A DNA stretch of 64,000 nt. It comes from Solitalea longa. GTDB taxonomy: Bacteria > Bacteroidota > Bacteroidia > Sphingobacteriales > Sphingobacteriaceae. Below the pieces are notes generated by a model, which was given only the letters and a program-made list of their open reading frames with translations, made no database searches and was not told the origin of the DNA. The DNA lies in assembly GCF_002920915.1 (NCBI RefSeq), contig NZ_PQVF01000005.1:248001-312000 (forward strand), given 5' to 3'. Below, piece after piece: positions 50,639-63,376 of this stretch (position 1 is its first letter; every line of letters begins with the position of its first letter). Position numbers and translations under genes: made by a program.

Positions 50639-50698
50639 ACGTCGGGATGGCCGGATTTGAACCGACGGCCTCCAGCACCCCATGCTGGCGCGATACCG
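50639..50698 (-). repeat. attL: Left attachment site (60-bp direct repeat; 3' part of tRNA-Pro)
   Basis: These 60 bases are identical to 63300-63359 and comprise the 3' portion of tRNA-Pro through the anticodon stem-loop and into the D arm. The tRNA's 5' bases do not follow here (they diverge after ...GATACCG), so it is a partial gene copy, as expected at the far end of a tRNA-integrated element. Confidence 0.93.
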
Positions 50699-51405: not shown

Positions 51406-51624
51406 CTATGTCAAACTAATTGGAAATTCTTCTGCTATAATTTGTTCAACAGTTGTCACCTCTTTAGTATCCATTCTTGCTAAAATTGCTACTGTTTCCC
51501 TATACTCCATTGCTTCTGGAGGCATTATAAATTCTGTTTGCAAGCCGTTTAATGCATCCCATGGAGAGTACACCAAAAGGTACTCTACAAAATTGACGAT
51601 TTCTTGGTTATTGTCGGATTTCAT
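51406..51624 (-). CDS. Small third protein of the McrBC-like operon
   Basis: A 72-aa, acidic, soluble protein starting MKSDNNQEIVNFVEYLLVY, with a C-terminal part rich in hydrophobic heptads (KEVTTVEQIIAEEFPISL). Its start codon lies within the last codons of the McrC-like gene (17-bp overlap including the stop), which argues for translational coupling. Family not recognised. An opposite-strand ORF covers the same bases but has a poor composition. Confidence 0.65.
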   Translation of the reverse strand: MKSDNNQEIVNFVEYLLVYSPWDALNGLQTEFIMPPEAMEYRETVAILARMDTKEVTTVEQIIAEEFPISLT

Positions 51625-53395
51625 TTAAAGTTAGATGCATCGCATAATCAATTATTTCAAGTATTGGGTTTTTTGATATATCAAAATTTTTGGGATCAAT
51701 TTCAATTGACCCAATCTGTGGGCCAATATATTCTGTTAAAGAAAGGTCATAACTCTTTTTAAAAGTACTTTTTCTATAATTACTAGGCCCCATTGAAATC
51801 GTATATAATCCAATGGTCTCGTTAATATATCTATCATTGGGACCTATTTTATGAAGATAATTCAATGACAATTTTGAAAGATCTTGTTCTAACGTTAAAG
51901 TATTATATTGTTTAAATTTTGCATCAAAGATGAAAAACTTTGACTTTCCATTGTTTTCAAATTCAATTAAAAAATCAGGTCTATATTTTAGATTTCCTCT
52001 TGAATATTGCTGAAAACAAACCGGCAATGATTCGTAGTGTAGCCTAATTAAAATGCTGTCTTTTTTAAGCTCATATTCCCCAGAAAGTTTATTATCTGGA
52101 GAAATATTTGTGCTTTTTCTTGTAAAGCTTGATGCGGTTTTCCTTTCTAAAATATCTTTCAATAAATAAAAGCAATAGACTTCAAACAATTTATCAAATG
52201 ATTCTATTTCAAGACTAAGATCATCTTTCTCTATATCAACAGAAAAGATATTTTGAGTATAAAGGATTAAGTCATAAACATTCTTATAGTGTTCTTTCGA
52301 AAGAAAGTTATGATTTGAGTTGTTTAACTTTGATATTGGGTGAGAAACAGGTACGTGCCTAATAAAAAAAAGATTTATTTTATCAATTTCTTGATCAATC
52401 TGATGTATGTATGTTTTAAATAGATCTAAGAAGCAATTAATTAAATAGTCTTTAAAATTAACAACTCTAGTTCTTAAGGCCTTCTCATTATTAAAATAGA
52501 GTTCTTTTTCTTTTACTAAAAGCGATAGATTCTTTAAGAATCCATGAATTACTCTATTTTCATAGGAATCAGTAGAAGAAATAGGATTGTCAATCAATAT
52601 TGATTCTACAATGTAATAAGAATTATTTATTTCAATTGCCTCATCATGTTTATGAAAGTTTGTTCGTGACAATGTATTTAAATTGTCAACAATATAATTC
52701 AGTGAAATATCTGATAGTTCCAGATCCTTATTGAAACTAACCAAATTCTGTTCATTGTGATACCGTTTTATAGAGTTTGTTTTGAATTTGTTAATTTCTT
52801 CGCTCCAAACCTTTAGTCTTCTTAGAAGTTCTCGTAATGCTTCAATTAAAGAATTTTGAATGTTACTTGAGTTTCCTGTGACAGAAACTTTATAGAGAAT
52901 TTGATTATCAAAATAATTATTACTTATTAAATAAGTCGTTACCAAATAAAAATTGTCATAAGTGATTTTTGAAGAAGAAATTTGTACCTTACCTTCTACC
53001 AATGCTTCACCTGTAGAGTTTAATAAAACTTCTAATTTGGCAATCCCAATCTCATTGATAAAAATTCTAGAGAATCTTCTATTACCCAAACTTGTCTTAT
53101 AAAAGACTTTTGAAATATGCGCATTATTATTTCCTGGAAGAATGTTAGAAATAAACTCTAAATCTAAATAATAAAAATACTGACCATTTATTTCTATCGG
53201 TTCTGAAAAATTGAATATTGTATTACCAATAAATAATTTTAGGTCTTGTGTTTTAAAATAAGTATCTGTAACGAATTCAATATCTATATAATCAAACTCA
53301 TTAACTTGAATAGTTAATGAGTTATCTTGAAGCAAAGTAAATTCCTTTAGTTCGTTCTCAGAGGAAACTCTTAAGATGATTTTTTCAGAATCCAT
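51608..53395 (-). CDS. McrC-like nuclease subunit (DUF2357/PD-(D/E)xK, COG1700-like)
   Basis: A 595-aa protein with an N-terminal beta-rich part, a helical middle and a C-terminal nuclease core. The core reads KYRPDFLIEFENNG (PD motif) and then FFIFDAKFKQY (D-A-K), about residues 468-500, which fits PD-(D/E)xK nucleases paired with McrB-type motors. The start ATG overlaps the upstream gene's stop as TAATG, so the two are translationally coupled. In McrBC-type restriction the motor loads on modified DNA and this subunit cuts. Here the target is unknown. Confidence 0.85.
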   Translation of the reverse strand: MDSEKIILRVSSENELKEFTLLQDNSLTIQVNEFDYIDIEFVTDTYFKTQDLKLFIGNTIFNFSEPIEINGQYFYYLDLEFISNILPGNNNAHISKVFYKTSLGNRRFSRIFINEIGIAKLEVLLNSTGEALVEGKVQISSSKITYDNFYLVTTYLISNNYFDNQILYKVSVTGNSSNIQNSLIEALRELLRRLKVWSEEINKFKTNSIKRYHNEQNLVSFNKDLELSDISLNYIVDNLNTLSRTNFHKHDEAIEINNSYYIVESILIDNPISSTDSYENRVIHGFLKNLSLLVKEKELYFNNEKALRTRVVNFKDYLINCFLDLFKTYIHQIDQEIDKINLFFIRHVPVSHPISKLNNSNHNFLSKEHYKNVYDLILYTQNIFSVDIEKDDLSLEIESFDKLFEVYCFYLLKDILERKTASSFTRKSTNISPDNKLSGEYELKKDSILIRLHYESLPVCFQQYSRGNLKYRPDFLIEFENNGKSKFFIFDAKFKQYNTLTLEQDLSKLSLNYLHKIGPNDRYINETIGLYTISMGPSNYRKSTFKKSYDLSLTEYIGPQIGSIEIDPKNFDISKNPILEIIDYAMHLTLNEIRQ

Positions 53396-55836
53396 TAAAA
53401 AAATGAGTAGGTTTTAAAATCATTGCCTTTTAAAAGAATGTTGTCAATTTCATCAGCACATTTAAACAATGATTTGTCTAGACATATATCTTTTAGTTTT
53501 GACAATCTTTGCTTAAACCCTTCTCCTTGACCGTTTATTAAAGGGATGATATTTTGCAAGATTGCATAATCTAATGCCAGAAATTGATTTTCTTGATACT
53601 GATTAAAAATATTTCTCGTAGTAGTACAATAACGGCCTATCGATTTTAACTTTCTTGGACTTATTGGAATTTGACTTCCAAGTTTATAATTCTTTTCCAT
53701 GAAAAGATCTTTAATCTCATTCATTACTCTTTTCTCAGATTGATTTAATGAGAATTCATCAGGTAAAAAAATCGATTTTAGATGTTCGTAGTTTAAAGAT
53801 GTATTCTCCTCTGTTTCGTCGTCTCCTTTTTTTACTTCAATTGAGTCAAAATATTTATAATCTATATTCAATATAGTTGCTCGATCAATTAAACGAGGTG
53901 ATAACATTTCTGTCGTATGATCATTATTAACAGTAAGGATAAACCTTAGTCCATCAGGCAGAAATAGCTTACCATCTTTAAATTCATTACTTTGAATATA
54001 TCTGCCTGTTTCTTTATCACATAACCCAATAAAATCAGACCAATAATGCTCAATTGGACTTAAATTAGCTTCATCTAAAATAACATGAGTTGGAAATCGT
54101 TCAAGTAAGTTTTTATCATTGTTATTAAGGCTTTTAAGCAGCTTTACAAATCCGTAATCATCGTATTGATATGTTCCTTTTAATGGATTATAGTAACCCA
54201 AAATGTTCTTTTTAGAACTCCATCCTCTACCTACGGGAATTTCAATGGCAAAATCTCTTGCACAAAAATAGTTTGCAAGTAAATTTGCTAAAGAGGTTTT
54301 TCCCACTCCGGGTAAACCAGAAAAAATCGTTAGGAAGTTTTGGTTAACACTAGTTAGTATATTAGCAATTTCTATTTCATTTAAACCTCTTCCATTCCTT
54401 TCTAAAAATTGCTTTAGATCAATAATAATTTCATTAATATCAGCTACATTTTTAAAGCTATATTTTTGTAAAACGATTGACTCCTTGTTGTCTCTCTCTT
54501 CTTCAGGATAAACACCACTAAGAGCTTTAACATAAGGCATTAATTCAACAATTTTTTTGTGTGAACCTTTATTCGCTTCTTCAATATAAGCATTCCGAAG
54601 CTCCTCAAGCTCAGCAGTAACTTTTTCCTTATCCTGCTTTAATCTATTGACAAATCCAAACAAAACATCGTACTCCTTGTTTAGATCCTCATAATTTTCA
54701 ATCCGCTCTAGTTCCTTGATTTTTTCTGAAATCGAATTTTCAACTTTTGTTAATTCTTCAGATTTAGATTTTAAATAATCTTTATCATCCTTTAATTTTA
54801 TAATTTCAGATTCAATTCCCTTCTTCTCTTCTATTAATTCTTCAACTTCTTTATGTAATTCGATTTGATTTTGTTTTGCAGTAGTTTTAAGCTCTTCCTC
54901 TATATCTTGTAGAAGTTTATTTTTATTATTCTTTATAAATTGATCTATTTTATCTTGCCCTTCTTCTGTATTAAAATATTTATTGACTAAAAAAGAATCA
55001 ATAAAATTAACCCACCGAACACTTTTGTCATTTAAACCCACAAAGCGCTTAAATCTTAGTTCGTCTATTCGACCACTGGTAATAACTATCTCATTAGAAT
55101 CAATTTTGGGAAATTGCTTTGGGAATGCTTTAGGAATGTAAGTTTCTGCCCAAGTAATAATAGAGGTATCCGTTTCCGTTAATAAAATATCTTCTGGATC
55201 AATTTTGGAAACAATGAAATCAATTTGACTTATATATTCCTCCATTCCATTCAGGCCGTACGAATTTTTAACAATGAATTCAGATAGTTTATTACTGCTA
55301 AATTTAAAAACTACTTGAGCTAAATTTTCGTCAATTGAAAGATCTGTTGTATTTAATGGTTCTATTTTATATTTAACCCAATTAGTCTCTTCAGTAGTGT
55401 TACTTTCTAAAATAGAAATTGGGCCATAAATTGATTCATTATCTTCCACAAAAACATATTTGTGATTCTTATAAGGCAAAAATATTCCATCCTTAAGAAC
55501 ATCTTCAATGTTTGATTGAATCAACATTGGAAGTTTTTTTAATGTGGAAGTATTCCCATTTTTAGTCTGATATTTACAGCTACTAGGTGAAAACTCTTGG
55601 TAGTTTCCTGTTTCTTCAATTTCAATAATGAAAAACTCTTTATCGTCAAAATCTTGCGAAATTTGATAGAATTCCTTGTGAACAATCACCGTCCCTGTAT
55701 TTGCATAGATATCTTTGGCAATGTCTGCATTACCAACTAATTCAAAATGATTGTTAGAGTTAAAATGGTAAACCGGTTTAATAAAGCCAGTTTCTTCATT
55801 TTTTCGGTTGCTTTTTCTTGCAATTATTTTATTCAT
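53395..55836 (-). CDS. McrB-like AAA+ NTPase with a long coiled coil
   Basis: An 813-aa protein. Residues about 1-290 form an unrecognised, probably sensing, region. Residues about 305-415 are a strong coiled coil with long runs of Glu, Lys and Leu heptads. The AAA+ core has Walker A FSGLPGVGKTSLANLL (about residue 508), Walker B VILDEANLSP and a sensor-type segment LTVNNDHTTEMLSPRLIDRA. E. coli McrB has MNTADR at that position and binds GTP; the difference means nucleotide preference is open. Coiled-coil McrB relatives are known from CoCoNuT-type systems, but membership is untested. Partner genes follow immediately. Confidence 0.85.
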   Translation of the reverse strand: MNKIIARKSNRKNEETGFIKPVYHFNSNNHFELVGNADIAKDIYANTGTVIVHKEFYQISQDFDDKEFFIIEIEETGNYQEFSPSSCKYQTKNGNTSTLKKLPMLIQSNIEDVLKDGIFLPYKNHKYVFVEDNESIYGPISILESNTTEETNWVKYKIEPLNTTDLSIDENLAQVVFKFSSNKLSEFIVKNSYGLNGMEEYISQIDFIVSKIDPEDILLTETDTSIITWAETYIPKAFPKQFPKIDSNEIVITSGRIDELRFKRFVGLNDKSVRWVNFIDSFLVNKYFNTEEGQDKIDQFIKNNKNKLLQDIEEELKTTAKQNQIELHKEVEELIEEKKGIESEIIKLKDDKDYLKSKSEELTKVENSISEKIKELERIENYEDLNKEYDVLFGFVNRLKQDKEKVTAELEELRNAYIEEANKGSHKKIVELMPYVKALSGVYPEEERDNKESIVLQKYSFKNVADINEIIIDLKQFLERNGRGLNEIEIANILTSVNQNFLTIFSGLPGVGKTSLANLLANYFCARDFAIEIPVGRGWSSKKNILGYYNPLKGTYQYDDYGFVKLLKSLNNNDKNLLERFPTHVILDEANLSPIEHYWSDFIGLCDKETGRYIQSNEFKDGKLFLPDGLRFILTVNNDHTTEMLSPRLIDRATILNIDYKYFDSIEVKKGDDETEENTSLNYEHLKSIFLPDEFSLNQSEKRVMNEIKDLFMEKNYKLGSQIPISPRKLKSIGRYCTTTRNIFNQYQENQFLALDYAILQNIIPLINGQGEGFKQRLSKLKDICLDKSLFKCADEIDNILLKGNDFKTYSFF

Positions 55837-55948
55837 TATTATTAAAAAGAAAGGTGTGTTTACAAAAGAGGTGGAGCAAATAAATTAAAAATAGCCAGTA
55901 AAATTATAAGACGCAATTTATAATAATTAATGAAAGATGAAAGGCTTT

Positions 55949-56413
55949 TTATAAAAGCCCCTCATCTCCAAAACTAAAGTAACCTTCACTTGAAACAATC
56001 AAATGATCTAGCACATCAATATTTAGTACTTTACCGGCCTCTTTTAATTGCCTCGTTATTCTTATGTCCGGTTCACTAGGTTGTAAATTCCCACTTGGAT
56101 GATTGTGGCAAAGAATGATAGTAGAAGCATGAGAAAGTAATGCTGCAACAAATATTACTTTAGCATCAACAACAGTTCCTGAAACACCTCCTAATGAAAC
56201 AGGATAAAGACCAATTACTTTTTGATTACGCTTTAATAATAAAACTTTAAATTCTTCCAGAAATTCTATTAAACCTTTATCCCAACTCTCCATAAAGATG
56301 TCGTAAGCATCTTTAGAAGTTCGAATCATCTTCATTTCAGACGATTTTACTTTAGGATAGTAGCTTAATGAGATTTCTGAAACTAACGGAAGTGTAGTAG
56401 CTTGTTTTTTCAT
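55949..56413 (-). CDS. RadC-type JAB/JAMM domain protein
   Basis: The start at 56413 gives 154 aa starting MKKQATTLPLVSEIS. The frame is open to 56554, but those bases belong to the structured region. The JAMM core is intact: CHNHPSGNLQPSEPD with both histidines, Ser and Asp, followed by VLDHLIVSSEGYFSF. It lacks the helix-hairpin-helix part of full RadC, as is common in mobile elements of Bacteroidota. The true biochemical role of RadC-like proteins is not settled. A 640-bp noncoding region lies directly upstream. Confidence 0.88.
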   Translation of the reverse strand: MKKQATTLPLVSEISLSYYPKVKSSEMKMIRTSKDAYDIFMESWDKGLIEFLEEFKVLLLKRNQKVIGLYPVSLGGVSGTVVDAKVIFVAALLSHASTIILCHNHPSGNLQPSEPDIRITRQLKEAGKVLNIDVLDHLIVSSEGYFSFGDEGLL

Positions 56414-56469
56414 ATAAATAAAGATTAACGAATGATTAACTGATAGAATGAATGGTTGTGCACCTACAG

Positions 56470-57003
56470 AACGCGCTCGCCGCTGCGAGTTAAGTGAAAG
56501 GTCACTGCAAAAGAGTTCGCTAGAACGCTGCAGTGATATGTTCGAAGAACACAAGGAACTGGCGAAGCTTTTCTTAAAAGCTATGACAGTTCTGAAGCCT
56601 GAAACGATAAGCAGGCGAGCCCAAAGTGTAAAGCGGTTGGATTTTGAACAATGAAGCTTGCTGAGTCTGTTTAAAAGACAATGGCAGCTTTACGATGACG
56701 AATGCAGAAACGGACAAGAATTGTGACAGAAAGCGAAGGGTAGGGATTGAAGCCTGGAACAATTGTTCCAAGCTGAAAAGTCTTGGTGCTTGTAAAGCTA
56801 TGCTTTACGAATCTGGCGGAATTCTATGGTAGTGCCGTAATGAGGAACGCCGAATTCCCGTTCATCAATATATTCCGATCCAGTAGCACACTATATAAGC
56901 AGTCCAGTAACCTTTTACCCTATAAAAGAATATGGAATGTGTTCTCCGAAGATCAGTTTTTGGCTTATCCCTCCTTAGGCAACCATCCGAGGGAAAGCCA
57001 TAA
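56470..57003 (+). ncRNA. Candidate structured RNA or structured replication/transfer region
   Basis: No convincing ORF crosses this stretch, yet at least nine stem-loops can be drawn. 56475-56490 is GCTCGC/GCGAGT with a CGCT loop. 56502-56509/56529-56536 is an 8-bp stem around GTTC-GCTA-GAAC. 56540-56550 is GTTC-GAA-GAAC. 56566-56582 is AGCTTTT-CTT-AAAAGCT. 56597-56616 is GCCTG/CAGGC. 56751-56774 has a 16-bp palindrome core. 56792-56808 is GTAAAGC-TAT-GCTTTAC. 56818-56858 is GGAATTC/GAATTCC. 56961-57000 is a nested TGGCTT+CCCTC/GAGGG+AAGCCA. GC looks higher than in the neighbours and plus-strand single-stranded parts are purine-rich, which favours RNA on the plus strand, but the strand is not proven. 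Confidence 0.5.
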
Positions 57004-57052
57004 CAAATGATCTGAACGGATTTGCAGAAAATGAGTTAAATATGTAATACCC

Positions 57053-57676
57053 TTAATTAGCTGCGAAACTGTTTTGGCTCTTTACGATATTAGAAATGGT
57101 TTCTAATAGTTCTTCATGCTGACTAATTAAGTTGTTTTTGTTCTCCAATTCTTGTTTGTAGTTGGCAATGCTTTCGGCAAGTGTTTTATTATTGGATCTT
57201 TCTTCTTGAAATTTCTTATAAATCAAAGCTTCTTTATAGCTAGTGCAGTTTTCATCTATTTCAATTACGTTGTTCCATGTATTCTGAAGAGAGTTCTTTT
57301 GAGAGTGGTCATCGGTTAATTCAATGCTTTGGCCATTAATAGAATGAGGAACTAGTTTAAATCGAAGATTAGAGCCGTTATAATGTAAAGAGACATTCCA
57401 GTTTTTCAAACTAATAGATTTAGAATGGATTACTTCATTATTTTGATCAATAAGAGTATAAATCTCGTGGTAATAATATGTCCATCCTCGTTCAATAGAA
57501 ATAAAAGTGCTAACAATATTGTTATTCAATGTTTCAAGTAAAGAAGTACAATATTTGATATTCTGCATTGTATCAATAGTGAAATAGCTTATGCTTCTGA
57601 TCCTTCCTGTTATTTCTATTTCATGCTTGGCTACATTAATTAATTTTTGAATCAATTCAATTTTGTTGTTATTCAT
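57053..57676 (-). CDS. Hypothetical island protein with C-terminal coiled coil
   Basis: The start at 57676 (MNNNKIELIQKLINVAKHEI) gives 207 aa and lies 5 bp after AAGGG-type purines; the frame extends to 57739 with less support. Beta-rich centre (SFISIERGWTYYYHE-like) and a C-terminal coiled coil (NYKQELENKNNLISQHEELL). Family not recognised. The stop is next to the structured region. Confidence 0.6.
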   Translation of the reverse strand: MNNNKIELIQKLINVAKHEIEITGRIRSISYFTIDTMQNIKYCTSLLETLNNNIVSTFISIERGWTYYYHEIYTLIDQNNEVIHSKSISLKNWNVSLHYNGSNLRFKLVPHSINGQSIELTDDHSQKNSLQNTWNNVIEIDENCTSYKEALIYKKFQEERSNNKTLAESIANYKQELENKNNLISQHEELLETISNIVKSQNSFAAN

Positions 57677-58484: not shown

Positions 58485-60365
58485 TTAGGAAAAAAAAGAA
58501 ATTTCATTAATCATTGATTCAGCAATTACCCTTAATTTAAAACTCATTGCTTGAATGTAAAATGCAGGGTACGATTTACCATTAATTTTTTTCTTGTCTT
58601 CTTGTGTAGTAAACCAACCTCTTTTTTGCAAATCAGTTGCTTTGGCAGTTTCCTTTAGACCTACTTTATCGTATAATTCTTGAAGTTTGGTTTTAATGTA
58701 TTCTTTAGCATAAGTTTCATCGACGATAAATTCAACAATCAATAATTTGTTTAACTGGTTTTCCGCTTTCTCATTTTTCTTAAGTATCAACTCTTTCTGT
58801 AAATCTTTTATGCTGAAATTCAGTTCTTCTATTTTCTCTTTTCCCAATTCATAATAGACCTCAAAAGCAAATGGGTCACTTATTTTAATATTACCCAATG
58901 CTGCGTCATTAAAACTGAAAAGCGATTCTTTTTTACCTTGTTCCAACTTTTCCATTAAATCAATAGTTGCCTTTAGTTTATCCCTTTTAGATTTTCGTTT
59001 TTCTTTTGATGGAGAAGACTCTATAGGTTTATGAAACTTTTTTAACTCAACCTTATAGCCTGATTCTTCCCATGCATAAATAATGAAGGATAAATGATTA
59101 AATTCTTCATTGCAAAGGTCTTCATTAACAAACTGATCAAGTTTGGTGTCATTTAATGTTGCAATTTGGTTTGCTTCTATATCTGAGAAGCTTTGAATTT
59201 TTTCAATCTCCTCTGTAAGAGGTTTAACATTATTGGCCTTGCATTCATCTACATATTGATTGTAATTCTCAATCAGTTTCATTGCATGAAATCGATATTC
59301 AGTATAGAATGATTCTATGGTTTTCATAAAGTGTTTTTTTCGATGGTTGGTGATATGGTATAATGCATATGGTATTGAACGGATTCTTCCAATTGCCTGA
59401 ACACCCTTATTTCTTATTCCAACTTTAGTATGTCGACAGTTCACATCTGTCACTAAAATTATGGTTGCATTCTCATCCTCAATATCAATTCCTTCGAAAT
59501 ATCTTGAAGTATAAAAATTTATCTTTTTATATTCTCCTTTAACTGGTTCGGGATTAAAGAAAACAGACACATCATCCATCCGCTCCATATTTTCTTCTTT
59601 ATCTGCACAATAGATGTTACAGTCATTTATTCCGACATATCTTATAAGCTCTGCTATTTCTGTAACTGAATTATAAAAGAAATGAAGATTGCCAGGAAAG
59701 CTATCTGCATGGCTTAAAAAATAGTTCACGCATGATTTAATTGTAAACGTTTCAACTACCGTTATATATCCCAAATAAGGCTCATTAAAGCGAATTTTAT
59801 AATAATCCAATTGCTTTATTCTTTCGTCACTGAAATAAAATGGGGTAGCTGATATGAACGATTTGTTTTTGAAGTTCCATAACCATTTAAAAGGATCTAA
59901 TATGCGTTTACGGAATTTCTCTGTCACTGAAGTATGACACTCGTCAAGAAGAACAAAGAAATCACTGTACAGCCTATCTAGAGATATTGATTCTTCTGCC
60001 GCCTTAATAATTTTCTTAAAGCCATCAGGAGTAGTCATTATTTTGAAGAATCCATCCGACTGCAGCAGTTCTGCTTTTATTGCAGAAATTGTAATTCCCT
60101 TATAAACTCCAAAGATTTTTCTGATTGCACTATTTCTGTCTTTGTTTGTTGCATCGGATCGCATTTTATTCTTTATAATGCCTACCGTGGGAACAATAAT
60201 AATCGAATGACGAAGGGTGATTAAACAAAGTGTGGTTCCGCCTATTCCGCAGCGACCTTTATCTATAAAAGCATTGGATGGAAGCACTTTAAAAGCTTTA
60301 GTTATATAATCTTTATTTGAGAGAATAATCGTTATAGGTTTTTTCATAATCTGAGGTATAGACAT
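58485..60365 (-). CDS. SF2 helicase-like protein with a lysine-less P-loop
   Basis: A 626-aa protein (or 620 aa from Met7 at 60347). The N-terminal motor has DKGRCGIGGTTLCLITL where Walker A would be GxxxxGK[ST]; the Lys is replaced by Gly. Other motifs remain: FVLLDECHTSV (DECH), FISATPF (motif III) and GVQAIGRIRSIPYALYHI (motif VI-like). The C-terminal half is helical and charged (KEKRKSKRDKLKATIDL) and not recognised. Helicases with GIGxTT-type loops occur in phages and plasmids of Bacteroidota as far as I recall, so this may be a family property rather than decay. A role in replication of the element is inferred. Confidence 0.7.
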   Translation of the reverse strand: MSIPQIMKKPITIILSNKDYITKAFKVLPSNAFIDKGRCGIGGTTLCLITLRHSIIIVPTVGIIKNKMRSDATNKDRNSAIRKIFGVYKGITISAIKAELLQSDGFFKIMTTPDGFKKIIKAAEESISLDRLYSDFFVLLDECHTSVTEKFRKRILDPFKWLWNFKNKSFISATPFYFSDERIKQLDYYKIRFNEPYLGYITVVETFTIKSCVNYFLSHADSFPGNLHFFYNSVTEIAELIRYVGINDCNIYCADKEENMERMDDVSVFFNPEPVKGEYKKINFYTSRYFEGIDIEDENATIILVTDVNCRHTKVGIRNKGVQAIGRIRSIPYALYHITNHRKKHFMKTIESFYTEYRFHAMKLIENYNQYVDECKANNVKPLTEEIEKIQSFSDIEANQIATLNDTKLDQFVNEDLCNEEFNHLSFIIYAWEESGYKVELKKFHKPIESSPSKEKRKSKRDKLKATIDLMEKLEQGKKESLFSFNDAALGNIKISDPFAFEVYYELGKEKIEELNFSIKDLQKELILKKNEKAENQLNKLLIVEFIVDETYAKEYIKTKLQELYDKVGLKETAKATDLQKRGWFTTQEDKKKINGKSYPAFYIQAMSFKLRVIAESMINEISFFS

Positions 60366-60461: not shown

Positions 60462-60848
60462 TTAAGCAGCTTTTGCAGCTTCTACTAATTCAACTAAAGT
60501 GAATTTAGGACTAATCTTTCCATCGATATAGTCATCAATGAATTGATCGATTTTACCACCAAGTACTAGCTTGAGTTCAGAAGTACCACGTGCTTTCCTT
60601 AAACGAAGCATTTTGTAGAGAGAACCAGCTTTGTCTTCCCTAACAAAGGGACTAACTTCAAAGTTTCCCACTTCAGAAATAGTCTTAAAAATTACGACTA
60701 GCTCTTGCTTGTTTTTAGAGGTTAATTTTCTTAAGTATACCATTAAATCTACTTTTGAAAAGTAAGTGTTGAAGAACTGTTCTTTTGTCAGTTCATTTGA
60801 TGATTGGCTTTCGCCAATTAAGTTGGTTAAATCAATATTATTTATCAT
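60462..60848 (-). CDS. Hypothetical island protein
   Basis: The ATG at 60848 gives 128 aa starting MINNIDLTNLIGESQSS; the frame is open to 60884. The protein is helical with basic patches (KMLRLRKARGTSELKLVLGG) and ends with an Ala-rich tail EAAKAA. Possible nucleic-acid binding is inferred from charge only. Terminator directly downstream. Confidence 0.6.
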   Translation of the reverse strand: MINNIDLTNLIGESQSSNELTKEQFFNTYFSKVDLMVYLRKLTSKNKQELVVIFKTISEVGNFEVSPFVREDKAGSLYKMLRLRKARGTSELKLVLGGKIDQFIDDYIDGKISPKFTLVELVEAAKAA

Positions 60849-60971
60849 AAAACTATTGTCAGTTGTTTTTTTCTGACACAGCAAATGTGAGTAAACAGGG
60901 AAATCGTGGAGAAACTTGGAGTGAATTTTTCAATATTTTCATTTCCCCTAATAATCAGCCAGTTGGATAAT

Positions 60972-61778
60972 TTACCTTTTTTCGTCCCGATATGAAATAA
61001 TTAATCTGCGCATGTTATCCACATTAATTTCTTCCTTATTTTTATTGATGATTTTCATTAAGGAGGTCAATCTTCTGAAAAATCTTAATTGATCATTAGA
61101 AAGAGTTTTTACATCTGATTTTAAGGAGGTCTCCTTGTTTAAATATTCACAGATTCTTAGACAAAATTCTGCAGTGGCATCATTAAATTTCCCGGCTAAT
61201 TTTAATGGCTTACCTTCTCGGATCACCTTTTCTAAAAAATCACTATTCAGATCACGTTTACCGAACATAGAAAACCAGTAATTCCCCAATTCATGAGAGC
61301 TTGAATAATTATTAAGTCTGTAAAAGATAGAATCAGCTATAAATTGAATTATTGCTTTCTCTTTTATAAGAATCGGCTCTTTATTTTTTCTTTTGAGGGT
61401 TATTTTTTCAATTTGGTCAAGATGATTCTTTTTAAAAAACAGCAGTATCTGTGCCAATTCGGCGCATAAAGAGGCATCCATTAGGTCCATGTCTTTAGAA
61501 TAGATTCCTTGCCAAAGTTCTTCGTATAAGTCAATGCTTACGTATAATAAATTGTCGTAATGATCAATTAAGTCGTAATTGTTTAAAAGCTTGTCAAACT
61601 TTTCTTCGAATTCATTTTTTTCTGTTTCAGAGTTAATATGCCTGAAGTAAACTTTTCCTCTGTTCAATTTATGCAGACGTAATTTTTCTTGCCATTCTTC
61701 TTCGGAAAGCTGAGACCAGAAATATGGTCTTAGTATTTCAAAATCAGGATTAAGGATAAAAGGGTCAGTATTAGCCAT
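60972..61778 (-). CDS. Hypothetical island protein
   Basis: A 268-aa, mostly helical, soluble protein (MANTDPFILNPDFEILRPYF at the start). Segments such as DASLCAELAQILLFFKKNHL and DQLRFFRRLTSLMKIINKNK are amphipathic. No family recognised. It lies between the recombinase gene and the 128-aa gene on the same strand but is separated from the former by a terminator. Confidence 0.65.
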   Translation of the reverse strand: MANTDPFILNPDFEILRPYFWSQLSEEEWQEKLRLHKLNRGKVYFRHINSETEKNEFEEKFDKLLNNYDLIDHYDNLLYVSIDLYEELWQGIYSKDMDLMDASLCAELAQILLFFKKNHLDQIEKITLKRKNKEPILIKEKAIIQFIADSIFYRLNNYSSSHELGNYWFSMFGKRDLNSDFLEKVIREGKPLKLAGKFNDATAEFCLRICEYLNKETSLKSDVKTLSNDQLRFFRRLTSLMKIINKNKEEINVDNMRRLIISYRDEKR

Positions 61779-61897: not shown

Positions 61898-63166
61898 CTA
61901 AAAATCAAAGATTTTAGCTTCTGCTGAAGAAATCACTCCTTTTTCGAATTCATCAAGGTAAGTTTGGGTTTGTTGCTCGGTTTGATGCCCTAATGCTTCG
62001 CTAATAATGCCGGTTGCAACTCCTGAACGTTTAAGATTAGTTGCATAACTATGGCGACTAACATAGGTTGTTAGTTTCAAATCTTCCTCACCTATCAGTT
62101 TAGCAATCTCTTTGAGGTTATCGTTTACTTTCTTAATAACGGTTTTCTTGCGGGTGTACTTCTGCTTTTCTGTAATATGAATCGAATCATTAAGAATTGG
62201 GAACACATATTTATCATTATGAGAAGTATTCTTGTAAAATTTGAGAATCTCTGCAGCATACTGATTTAGAGGTATAGTAAATAATTGACCTGTTTTACGT
62301 CTGGTATAATGAATCTCATTATTATGAATGTCTGACCATTCGAGAAAAGCCATATCAATGAAATTCATTCCACGCATGTAGAAGCTAAACAAGAAAACTT
62401 GTTGAGCGAAGTGAAGACCAGTTCCTTCTTTAAGTTTTAAGTCTTTAATCCTTTTAAAGATGTTAAGATTGACAGAACGTTTTCTTGTCTTATGGTTTAG
62501 ACGTTTGTTAATAGAGTATTTCTTCTCACCGAAGGGATAGTTTTCTTTTTTATAAAGGCCGTCTTCGATGGCTAGGTTTACTACTCTTTGTAGGTTTCGC
62601 ATTTTTACACTAATTGTAGTGTCTTTATTCTTTCGTTCATTCCTTAACCAATCCTCGAAGCTCTCTAGGAGTTTACTGTTTAAGTCGGTAATAAGGAGGT
62701 TAGAATTGAACTTTTTAAGCAAACTTTGGGTTTCATAATATACTGAAGCTAACCCTAGTTTCCTTTTATTTTCAAGCTCATTGATTAACTGCTTATAGTA
62801 TTCATTTAAAAGGTGAGAAGGTTTCTGTTTCTTTAAATCACGTTCAAATTGTGTAAATGTAAATGGAATATCATTCAGTTCGTATTCTCTAATGATCTTG
62901 TTGGCTTCTGAAAGCCTCTTTTCTAATATTGGATTTAGTTCTTTATAGAACTTAAAACTCCTGCGAAATTTACCTAATCCATTATCCTCTTGTGTTGCTT
63001 CACTCCATTGTTCTGGTAAACACTTAAAAGGGATTGACTGGTTTTCGACTAAAGACGTAATACTGTAGTACTTTCTCTCTTTGTTTTGACTAACTCTTAA
63101 GGCTACAGAATATTCGCCATTAGATAGTTTCTGCTTAGTTTTTAAAACGATTGCTGCTTTTGCCAT
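61898..63166 (-). CDS. int: Site-specific tyrosine recombinase (integrase)
   Basis: A 422-aa phage-type integrase of the Bacteroidota branch. N-terminal arm-binding domain (about residues 1-110), SAM-like core-binding domain and catalytic domain. Visible catalytic parts are the first Arg in FYMRGMNFIDMAFLEW (about residue 263), the second box TYVSRHSYATNLKRSG, and LGHQTEQQTQTYLDEFE with the nucleophile Tyr (about residue 405). It lies 137 bp from the tRNA-Pro gene and points away from it, the usual arrangement for an integrated element. It should catalyse integration and excision at the 60-bp repeats. Confidence 0.95.
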   Translation of the reverse strand: MAKAAIVLKTKQKLSNGEYSVALRVSQNKERKYYSITSLVENQSIPFKCLPEQWSEATQEDNGLGKFRRSFKFYKELNPILEKRLSEANKIIREYELNDIPFTFTQFERDLKKQKPSHLLNEYYKQLINELENKRKLGLASVYYETQSLLKKFNSNLLITDLNSKLLESFEDWLRNERKNKDTTISVKMRNLQRVVNLAIEDGLYKKENYPFGEKKYSINKRLNHKTRKRSVNLNIFKRIKDLKLKEGTGLHFAQQVFLFSFYMRGMNFIDMAFLEWSDIHNNEIHYTRRKTGQLFTIPLNQYAAEILKFYKNTSHNDKYVFPILNDSIHITEKQKYTRKKTVIKKVNDNLKEIAKLIGEEDLKLTTYVSRHSYATNLKRSGVATGIISEALGHQTEQQTQTYLDEFEKGVISSAEAKIFDF

Positions 63167-63299: not shown

Positions 63300-63359
63300 A
63301 CGTCGGGATGGCCGGATTTGAACCGACGGCCTCCAGCACCCCATGCTGGCGCGATACCG
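63300..63359 (-). repeat. attR: Right attachment site (60-bp direct repeat inside tRNA-Pro)
   Basis: Identical to 50639-50698. The repeat covers the 3' part of the tRNA including the anticodon arm; the remaining 5' bases of the tRNA (63360-63376) lie just outside, so the integrated element leaves a complete tRNA at this end. Confidence 0.93.
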
Positions 63360-63376
63360 GGCTACGCTACATCCCG
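63303..63376 (-). tRNA. tRNA-Pro (anticodon GGG)
   Basis: 74 nt without encoded CCA. Acceptor stem CGGGATG/CATCCCG, anticodon stem CCAGC/GCTGG with loop ATGGGGT giving anticodon GGG after U33, and TPsiC loop GGTTCAAATCC. It is intact and serves as the integration target of the island. Confidence 0.95.

Follow-up and report, generated by a model that had tools for sequence, protein, structure and literature searches.

A conserved folded element of Bacteroidota islands that looks like an undescribed family of structured RNA or single-stranded DNA

GOLLD, ROOL, OLE and HEARO are large, ornate RNAs, several of which reside in mobile elements. In integrons, the attC site is a folded strand at cassette boundaries, where cargo is exchanged. 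The RadC-type protein family, which concerns us because such a gene lies beside the element described here, has a function that has long been unsettled. The radC RNA motif is listed for Proteobacteria, and the STAXI motif is a repeated structure, built of tandem pseudoknots whose loops are UUCG, that occurs next to antirestriction and integrase genes (PMC2864571). The rAID arrays of Bacteroidales hold immunity genes together with conserved intergenic motifs and a tyrosine recombinase; they are described with short, co-oriented immunity genes and a single recombinase (PMC12247911). Here we analysed a 64,000-nt stretch of the Solitalea longa genome (the window) and found an element that looks like an apparently undescribed family of structured RNA, or of folded single-stranded DNA. 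A literature search, whose reach left out most subscription journals, recognised no earlier description of it.

A preliminary description of the window had marked positions 56470-57003, a stretch dense in stem-loops, as a possible new large structured RNA. The stems are present where it drew them, at 56792-56808 and at the positions given in Table 1, and its placement of the element holds apart from a slight widening at both ends: the nearest full-length relative (G004) is homologous from ~56460 to 57040. Folded on the + strand, 56470-57003 had a minimum free energy of -166.2 kcal/mol (z -4.4, 0 of 100 shuffles as good); its - strand gave z -3.8 (again 0 of 100), and the + strand gave z -5.9 with DNA parameters. 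The GC content (43.5% against 30.6% in the remainder of the island) bears out the earlier remark on a GC-richer region, and the AT and GC skews of the + strand are positive there. A stretch of ~95 bases at the 3' end of the element, comprising hairpin 56962-56999 with its tail, is found again at 80% identity in L006 and L021 of genome G065, where it overlaps, twice in the one genome, the 3' end of a gene named by eye as transposase-like.

Table 1 Features of the structured element and of the tRNA-Pro island that carries it, in window coordinates.
Feature	Position	Strand	Evidence or remark
Structured element	56466-57040	+	whole homologous stretch, ends approximate; full-length relative in G004 75% identical; fold z -4.4
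Hairpin P2	56500-56537	+	predicted fold and consensus fold
Hairpin P3, GAA loop	56540-56550	+	predicted fold, loop survey
Core, covered by covariance model R1	56551-56695	+	
Hairpin P4	56556-56592	+	covaries
Hairpin P5, then conserved GAGCC stretch	56597-56616	+	alignment and covariation test
P6, long stem around hairpin: inner helix and tandem G.A step	56628-56694	+	covaries
Equivalent of the 3' edge motif (GGAATGCC...CC) of shorter Sphingobacterium-type copies	56844-56859	+	
Extra 3' domain with hairpin 56962-56999	56860-57040	+	common to G004 and G000:C12 copy
Left attachment repeat	50639-50698	.	60 bp identical to 3' part of tRNA-Pro; repeats 63300-63359
Cargo, McrC-like, weak PD-(D/E)XK match	51608-53395	-	PDDEXK_7 E=3.8e-4, 21 bits, just under cut-off 22.1
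Cargo, McrB-like AAA+ protein	53395-55836	-	AAA_5 E=1.8e-4; PADLOC PDC-M26A E=9.6e-28
RadC-like JAB-domain gene, divergent, start 52 bp from element	55949-56413	-	PF04002 E=1.5e-36
Gene of unknown function, convergent to element	57053-57676	-	sub-cut-off Med28 match only
SF2-helicase-like protein, the element's most regular partner	58485-60365	-	no family in Pfam, NCBIfam, PHROGs or PADLOC
Small island protein	60462-60851	-	its cluster in 5/97 neighbourhoods
Island protein of unknown function	60972-61778	-	no family match
Tyrosine integrase of island	61898-63166	-	Phage_integrase E=6.6e-14; Phage_int_SAM_5 E=2e-18
tRNA-Pro (ggg), integration site	63302-63376	-	right repeat 63300-63359

This copy lies inside a 12.7-kb tRNA-Pro island bounded by perfect 60-bp direct repeats. 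With an integrase beside the tRNA and flanking direct repeats, the locus is a tRNA-integrated genomic island. Two of its cargo names are provisional: the AAA+ protein is probably McrB-like, and the adjoining protein may be McrC-like, given its position beside the AAA protein. A coding role for the element itself was rejected for want of a conserved reading frame: across all six frames, no more than 77 codons run without a stop, and no frame stays open throughout in 20 Sphingobacterium-type relatives, in keeping with the earlier judgement that no open reading frame there was convincing. The Rfam search suggested in the preliminary description yielded no family match for the element. At gathering cut-offs, a tRNA was the sole match of Rfam 15 in the whole window, and at E<=10 over 55800-57200 there were 11 matches, every one below its cut-off.

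The core carries a signal of selection on pairing. Our covariance model R1 has 166 positions and 37 pairs. In an alignment of 103 matches (102 distinct) fitted to the model, and so leaning towards it, 91.8% of cells were paired against 71.4% after shuffling, and 34 of the 37 core pairs showed two-sided change. The covariation score was 0.507 against 0.162 for shuffled alignments, none of 500 shuffles scored as high, and sliding the partners destroyed the signal. The same structure on a MAFFT alignment of 18 sequences gave 93.3% paired cells against 84.1% shuffled, with two-sided change in 18 of the 37 pairs. For 20 full-length Sphingobacterium-type copies, RNAalifold proposed 105 pairs, 40 of them with two-sided changes. 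Its consensus on a loose MAFFT alignment (A1) held just 11 pairs, 5 two-sided, a poor result that we put down to misalignment; the structure used for covariation was named by hand on a tighter alignment (A2) and replaced that consensus. Judging from compensatory changes beyond those of shuffled and slid controls, the element is a structured nucleic acid under selection. Covariation among homologues, on which the preliminary description had staked its proposal, is thus present, and as far as sequence goes the proposed large structured RNA is supported as a conserved, covarying fold without an Rfam match; folded single-stranded DNA would fit this too, and the origin, oriT or transfer site that the preliminary description offered as alternatives are candidates.

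As to orientation, the core pairs include 136 G.T cells but 66 A.C cells, and the form seen most often inside P6 is a tandem G.A step (GA/GA in 39 of 103 rows). The folded strand is therefore, by these sequence criteria, the + strand, with which RNA and single-stranded DNA are both compatible. A long-range 5' pairing predicted in Sphingobacterium-type copies (GCUCGCC/GGCGAGC) is not claimed, because it hardly varies there and, by eye, is absent from other lineages.

The element is widespread in its family. With BLAST, the own genome proved to hold a second copy, and 17 of 301 family genomes, the own one included, gave matches; in a profile search most of these loci proved to be one homologous element, with L006, L021 and L004 matching only in part. 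A pattern scan of named genomes returned 36 loci. Twenty were accepted on reading, in Sphingobacterium species (S. deserti and S. paludis among them), a Parapedobacter, Draconibacterium, Tangfeifania, Labilibacter and a Cytophagales MAG, and 16 were dismissed as chance matches (for example, in Haemophilus, Mannheimia and Acidobacteria). The scan also placed the element in a contig labelled Wolfebacteria, which may be misbinned. R1 matched at least 132 of 399 Sphingobacteriaceae genomes (14 of 25 genera) and, class-wide, at least 19 of 395 genomes (15 of 197 genera). A second model, R2, matched at least 10 of 375 genomes phylum-wide, all within the same class, and in the own genome R1 and R2 gave six and seven matches, respectively. 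These family-, class- and phylum-wide counts, and the helicase counts given below, are lower bounds, because weak matches were lost and first-look scoring took few candidates per genome. Neither plasmid and phage collections (blastn) nor viral contigs (exact pattern) contained a match.

Where the element begins and ends could be read from 33 Sphingobacterium-type loci, some of them sharing a genome (three in G315 and two in each of G327, G162 and G333). Among their 528 pairs, 521 align through the core; 389 of these alignments stop 75-89 nt before it and 314 stop 130-149 nt after it, the remainder stopping mostly earlier, in truncated or divergent copies. If a flank counts as shared once the alignment reaches more than 120 nt upstream or 185 nt downstream of the core, 502 pairs have no flank in common, 10 have the left one, 9 have the right one and none has both. 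Inside the element, distances of the 5' and 3' parts correlate at 0.29 across 20 copies, whereas 200 column permutations averaged 0.85 and never fell below 0.63; measured by sequence distance, the two parts have different, mosaic histories.

Genes abut these edges closely. Thirty of the 33 loci have a recognisable 3' edge motif, and in 26 of those a forward ORF of at least 100 aa starts within 130 nt; at random positions of the same loci, where an upstream in-frame stop was also demanded, a forward-ORF start was seen in 261 of 5,748 cases. The right gene starts 9-40 nt after the 3' edge in 17 of the 30 loci, and in seven loci forward left genes stop 4-13 nt before the 5' edge. We scanned ten cargo proteins, eight encoded by the first and two by the second forward gene behind the element. 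They matched SIR2/STAND, NACHT, GmrSD, Schlafen-AlbA_2 and AbiLi-like AAA proteins as well as PDC-S28, PDC-M02 and, weakly, PDC-M67 candidates; three of the ten, the NACHT protein among them, had no PADLOC match. By these profile matches, most of the tested cargo proteins are putative members of defence families. Two cargo proteins, each searched in 50 genus genomes, matched in 2 of 50, always at a known element locus; since one of the two matches is the query's own, this small sample gives one independent case per protein. A place at exchangeable junctions of defence and immunity cargo has good support from the Sphingobacterium-type loci and is hinted at by those of the own genus.

We tentatively favour, with a confidence just short of even, a new family of large structured elements at junctions of exchangeable cargo genes, combining a role at the RNA level with homology-driven cargo exchange. 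What we observe is a conserved covarying strand, fixed-orientation co-occurrence with a helicase-like gene and, in Sphingobacterium-type loci, common edges, unrelated abutting genes, independent flanks and mosaic parts. The + strand would be transcribed, and the folded RNA would act with the adjoining cargo; in Sphingobacterium it would form the 5' leader of the gene starting 9-120 nt behind the element. Recombination at the homologous sequence that the conserved block supplies would also exchange the cargo on one side, and the partner helicase might work on the folded strand or take part in replication or transfer of the island. We counted the size, the loop conservation and the Sphingobacterium-type leader position for RNA. 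The leader position is not general across loci: the gene closest on the right is forward in 53 of 90 loci and the one closest on the left is oriented away in 56 of 78 (edges being approximate outside Sphingobacterium-type loci), and in the window the nearest right gene is convergent.

The closest competitor, which we consider somewhat unlikely, is a folded single-stranded DNA site resembling a giant integron attC or a transfer or replication site, at whose edges a recombinase joins cargo. The strand would fold while the island is single-stranded, and either a host enzyme or the tyrosine integrase of the island would serve as the recombinase. The shared edges at the two ends and the independent exchange of flanks are consistent with such a site, as are the tight spacing of left and right genes and the DNA-handling neighbours (integrase, RadC and helicase). 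DNA-type stability is a further point in its favour. Over 13 copies, the mean z of the + strand was -7.6 with DNA and -6.0 with RNA parameters (- strand, -6.2 and -5.0), and the order was reversed for RNase P (-2.5 DNA, -3.1 RNA; 7 sequences) and tmRNA (-0.7 DNA, -1.1 RNA; 6 sequences). GNA triloops are very stable in DNA; among loops picked automatically, they made up 44 of 87 at P3 and 21 of 69 at P2. In these small samples, the larger gain with DNA parameters and the GNA loops hint at DNA. Nor is a promoter motif enriched ahead of the element: the Bacteroidota motif TAnnTTTG occurred in 1 of the 27 loci (of 33) whose edge was located by motif, against 1.3 by shuffling, and an earlier test with approximate edges likewise found no enrichment. 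Within the 3' part, the exact motif was present in 0 of 27 copies and its one-mismatch form in all 27 (shuffled mean 20.2), which is not independent evidence because the copies are homologous; an internal promoter for the right-hand gene in this part is possible.

Against a folded DNA site stands the length of the element, which at 385-575 nt far exceeds that of attC sites. The window integrase, the only one scanned, is not an integron integrase (IntI model TIGR02249, 21 bits against a cut-off of 265). The mosaicism inside the element points to homologous exchange and not to a fixed crossover point, and truncated copies stop at different positions (51, 129 and 166).

For neighbouring genes we used 97 of the 103 model matches, omitting L138 (41 bits), L052 (its contig equal in length to that of L155), second hits in L039, L144 and L145, and a partial hit on the minus strand in L205. 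A member of the helicase-like family is present in 26 of the 97 neighbourhoods, always downstream and on the opposite strand. A search with the helicase protein matched at least 94 of 399 family genomes; among the matches listed, 72 genomes have both, 60 the element only, 22 the helicase only and 245 neither (Fisher p 1e-23). A listed element lies within 25 kb of at least 68 of 105 helicase places, and in 67 of these the helicase is 3' of the element on the opposite strand, 1.8-18 kb away; in the exception (G108), it is downstream on the same strand. The other 37 places have no listed element near. The family keeps the SF2 marks DE, SAT and QxxGRxR, and at motif I its alignment consensus is GIGAT in place of the usual GKT. 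The protein has no sequence match in the PDB; its predicted model (mean pLDDT 86) has mostly RecQ/BLM and DEAD-box helicases as best PDB neighbours, at low TM-scores of 0.2-0.4.

A RadC-type gene is found in 30 of the 97 neighbourhoods, its strand always opposite to that of the element. It is upstream in the window, L024, L028, L039 and others, and downstream elsewhere, including the Sphingobacterium-type loci L029, L035 and L040. Directly beside the 5' end it occurs in only 4 of 97 (window, L024, L039 and L156), plus L023 outside that set. The link to RadC that had been drawn from adjacency survives as a frequent island neighbourhood, but not as a regular position at the 5' end. More regular partners than RadC are the helicase-like gene and, in Sphingobacterium-type loci, the forward gene directly 3'. 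Among other neighbours, named by eye, L045 and L192 have two tandem XerC-like recombinase genes 0.2-2.2 kb behind the element core, and L043, L145 and L192 have Rhs-core-like fragments to its left, hinting at polymorphic-toxin arrays.

The strong co-occurrence with the helicase at 1.8-18 kb would also suit a free-standing island noncoding RNA akin to GOLLD or ROOL, which would form assemblies of its own or with the helicase-like protein and whose position beside cargo would be incidental. The large, ornate fold fits this too, as does the precedent of such RNAs in mobile elements. We regard it as improbable: with flanks that differ from the edges outward, it has no conserved promoter or terminator of its own beyond them, a scan of the window region for Sigma-70-type promoters and terminators found nothing beyond chance, and the spacing to forward genes in Sphingobacterium-type loci is tight.

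Copies in the own genus sit in arrays. Five of them, four in the own genome and one in G029, are 91-95% identical over ~525 bp and lie behind a repeated four-gene module with DUF5675, with mostly different cargo around. The module (267 aa, DUF5675, 82 aa and 73 aa; ~2 kb, 88-93% identical) stands at the left end of cargo arrays in L134-L137 (own genome) and L139 (G029), and in another family two of its proteins have relatives upstream of the element (L186 and L187). Incomplete copies occur as well. Fragments of the 5' part lie between cargo genes (model positions 1-166 in L135; 1-129 and 1-51 in L139), L138 is an inner fragment (176-281) away from such an array, and in L023 and L039 a RadC gene lies between a fragment and a fuller copy; L196 lacks the 5' part, and L031 and L198 lack the usual 3' part. 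The L135 array (G000:C3:120528-121110) begins ~0.2 kb behind the tmRNA gene, which makes ssrA its possible site. Between cargo genes there is also a second repeat, ~125-140 bp long and with a hairpin that by eye resembles a terminator (L139 3663-3799, L135 4473-4613, L136 2774-2901, L137 7364-7501), once directly behind an element 5' fragment.

A small mobile element, moving by itself or in trans and inserting between genes, could account for the five own-genus copies of 91-95% identity with mostly unrelated flanks but is very improbable, since L135 and L137 share their left cargo and not their right, 0 of the 521 Sphingobacterium-type pairs share both flanks although single flanks are shared, and no transposase recurs beside the element in the 25 commonest neighbour clusters.

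Present in at least a third of the sampled family genomes and without an Rfam match, the element would offer a handle for finding the defence genes that abut it, a way to ask how Bacteroidota exchange defence cassettes, and defined partners with which to test why islands are accompanied by RadC-type genes. A bolder proposal, which we think unlikely as a whole, is an integron-like Bacteroidota cassette system for defence and immunity genes. The giant, deeply conserved folded strand would be its exchange site, served by the SF2-helicase-like partner and RadC; arrays would grow and swap cargo there, and the strand would also govern the gene behind it.

Compared with described systems, STAXI shares the ambiguity between RNA and single-stranded DNA; whereas STAXI consists of tandem pseudoknots (PMC2864571), the element is one 385-575-nt fold with many GNA and GNNA loops. 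The rAID arrays differ from the element in their description, with short, co-oriented immunity genes and one recombinase (PMC12247911). GOLLD, ROOL, OLE and HEARO differ from the element in that no Rfam match links them to it. For group II introns and HEARO, there was likewise no Rfam match, nor a reverse transcriptase or IscB/TnpB-like partner among the window proteins scanned. The radC RNA motif (RF01754) is likewise a structured RNA and is named after radC genes; its covariance model gave no match to the element over 55800-57200, even at E<=10. Unlike attC, the element is longer and has no IntI at the window island; where an attC-type site has a fixed crossover, the element shows common edges alongside mosaic exchange inside it.
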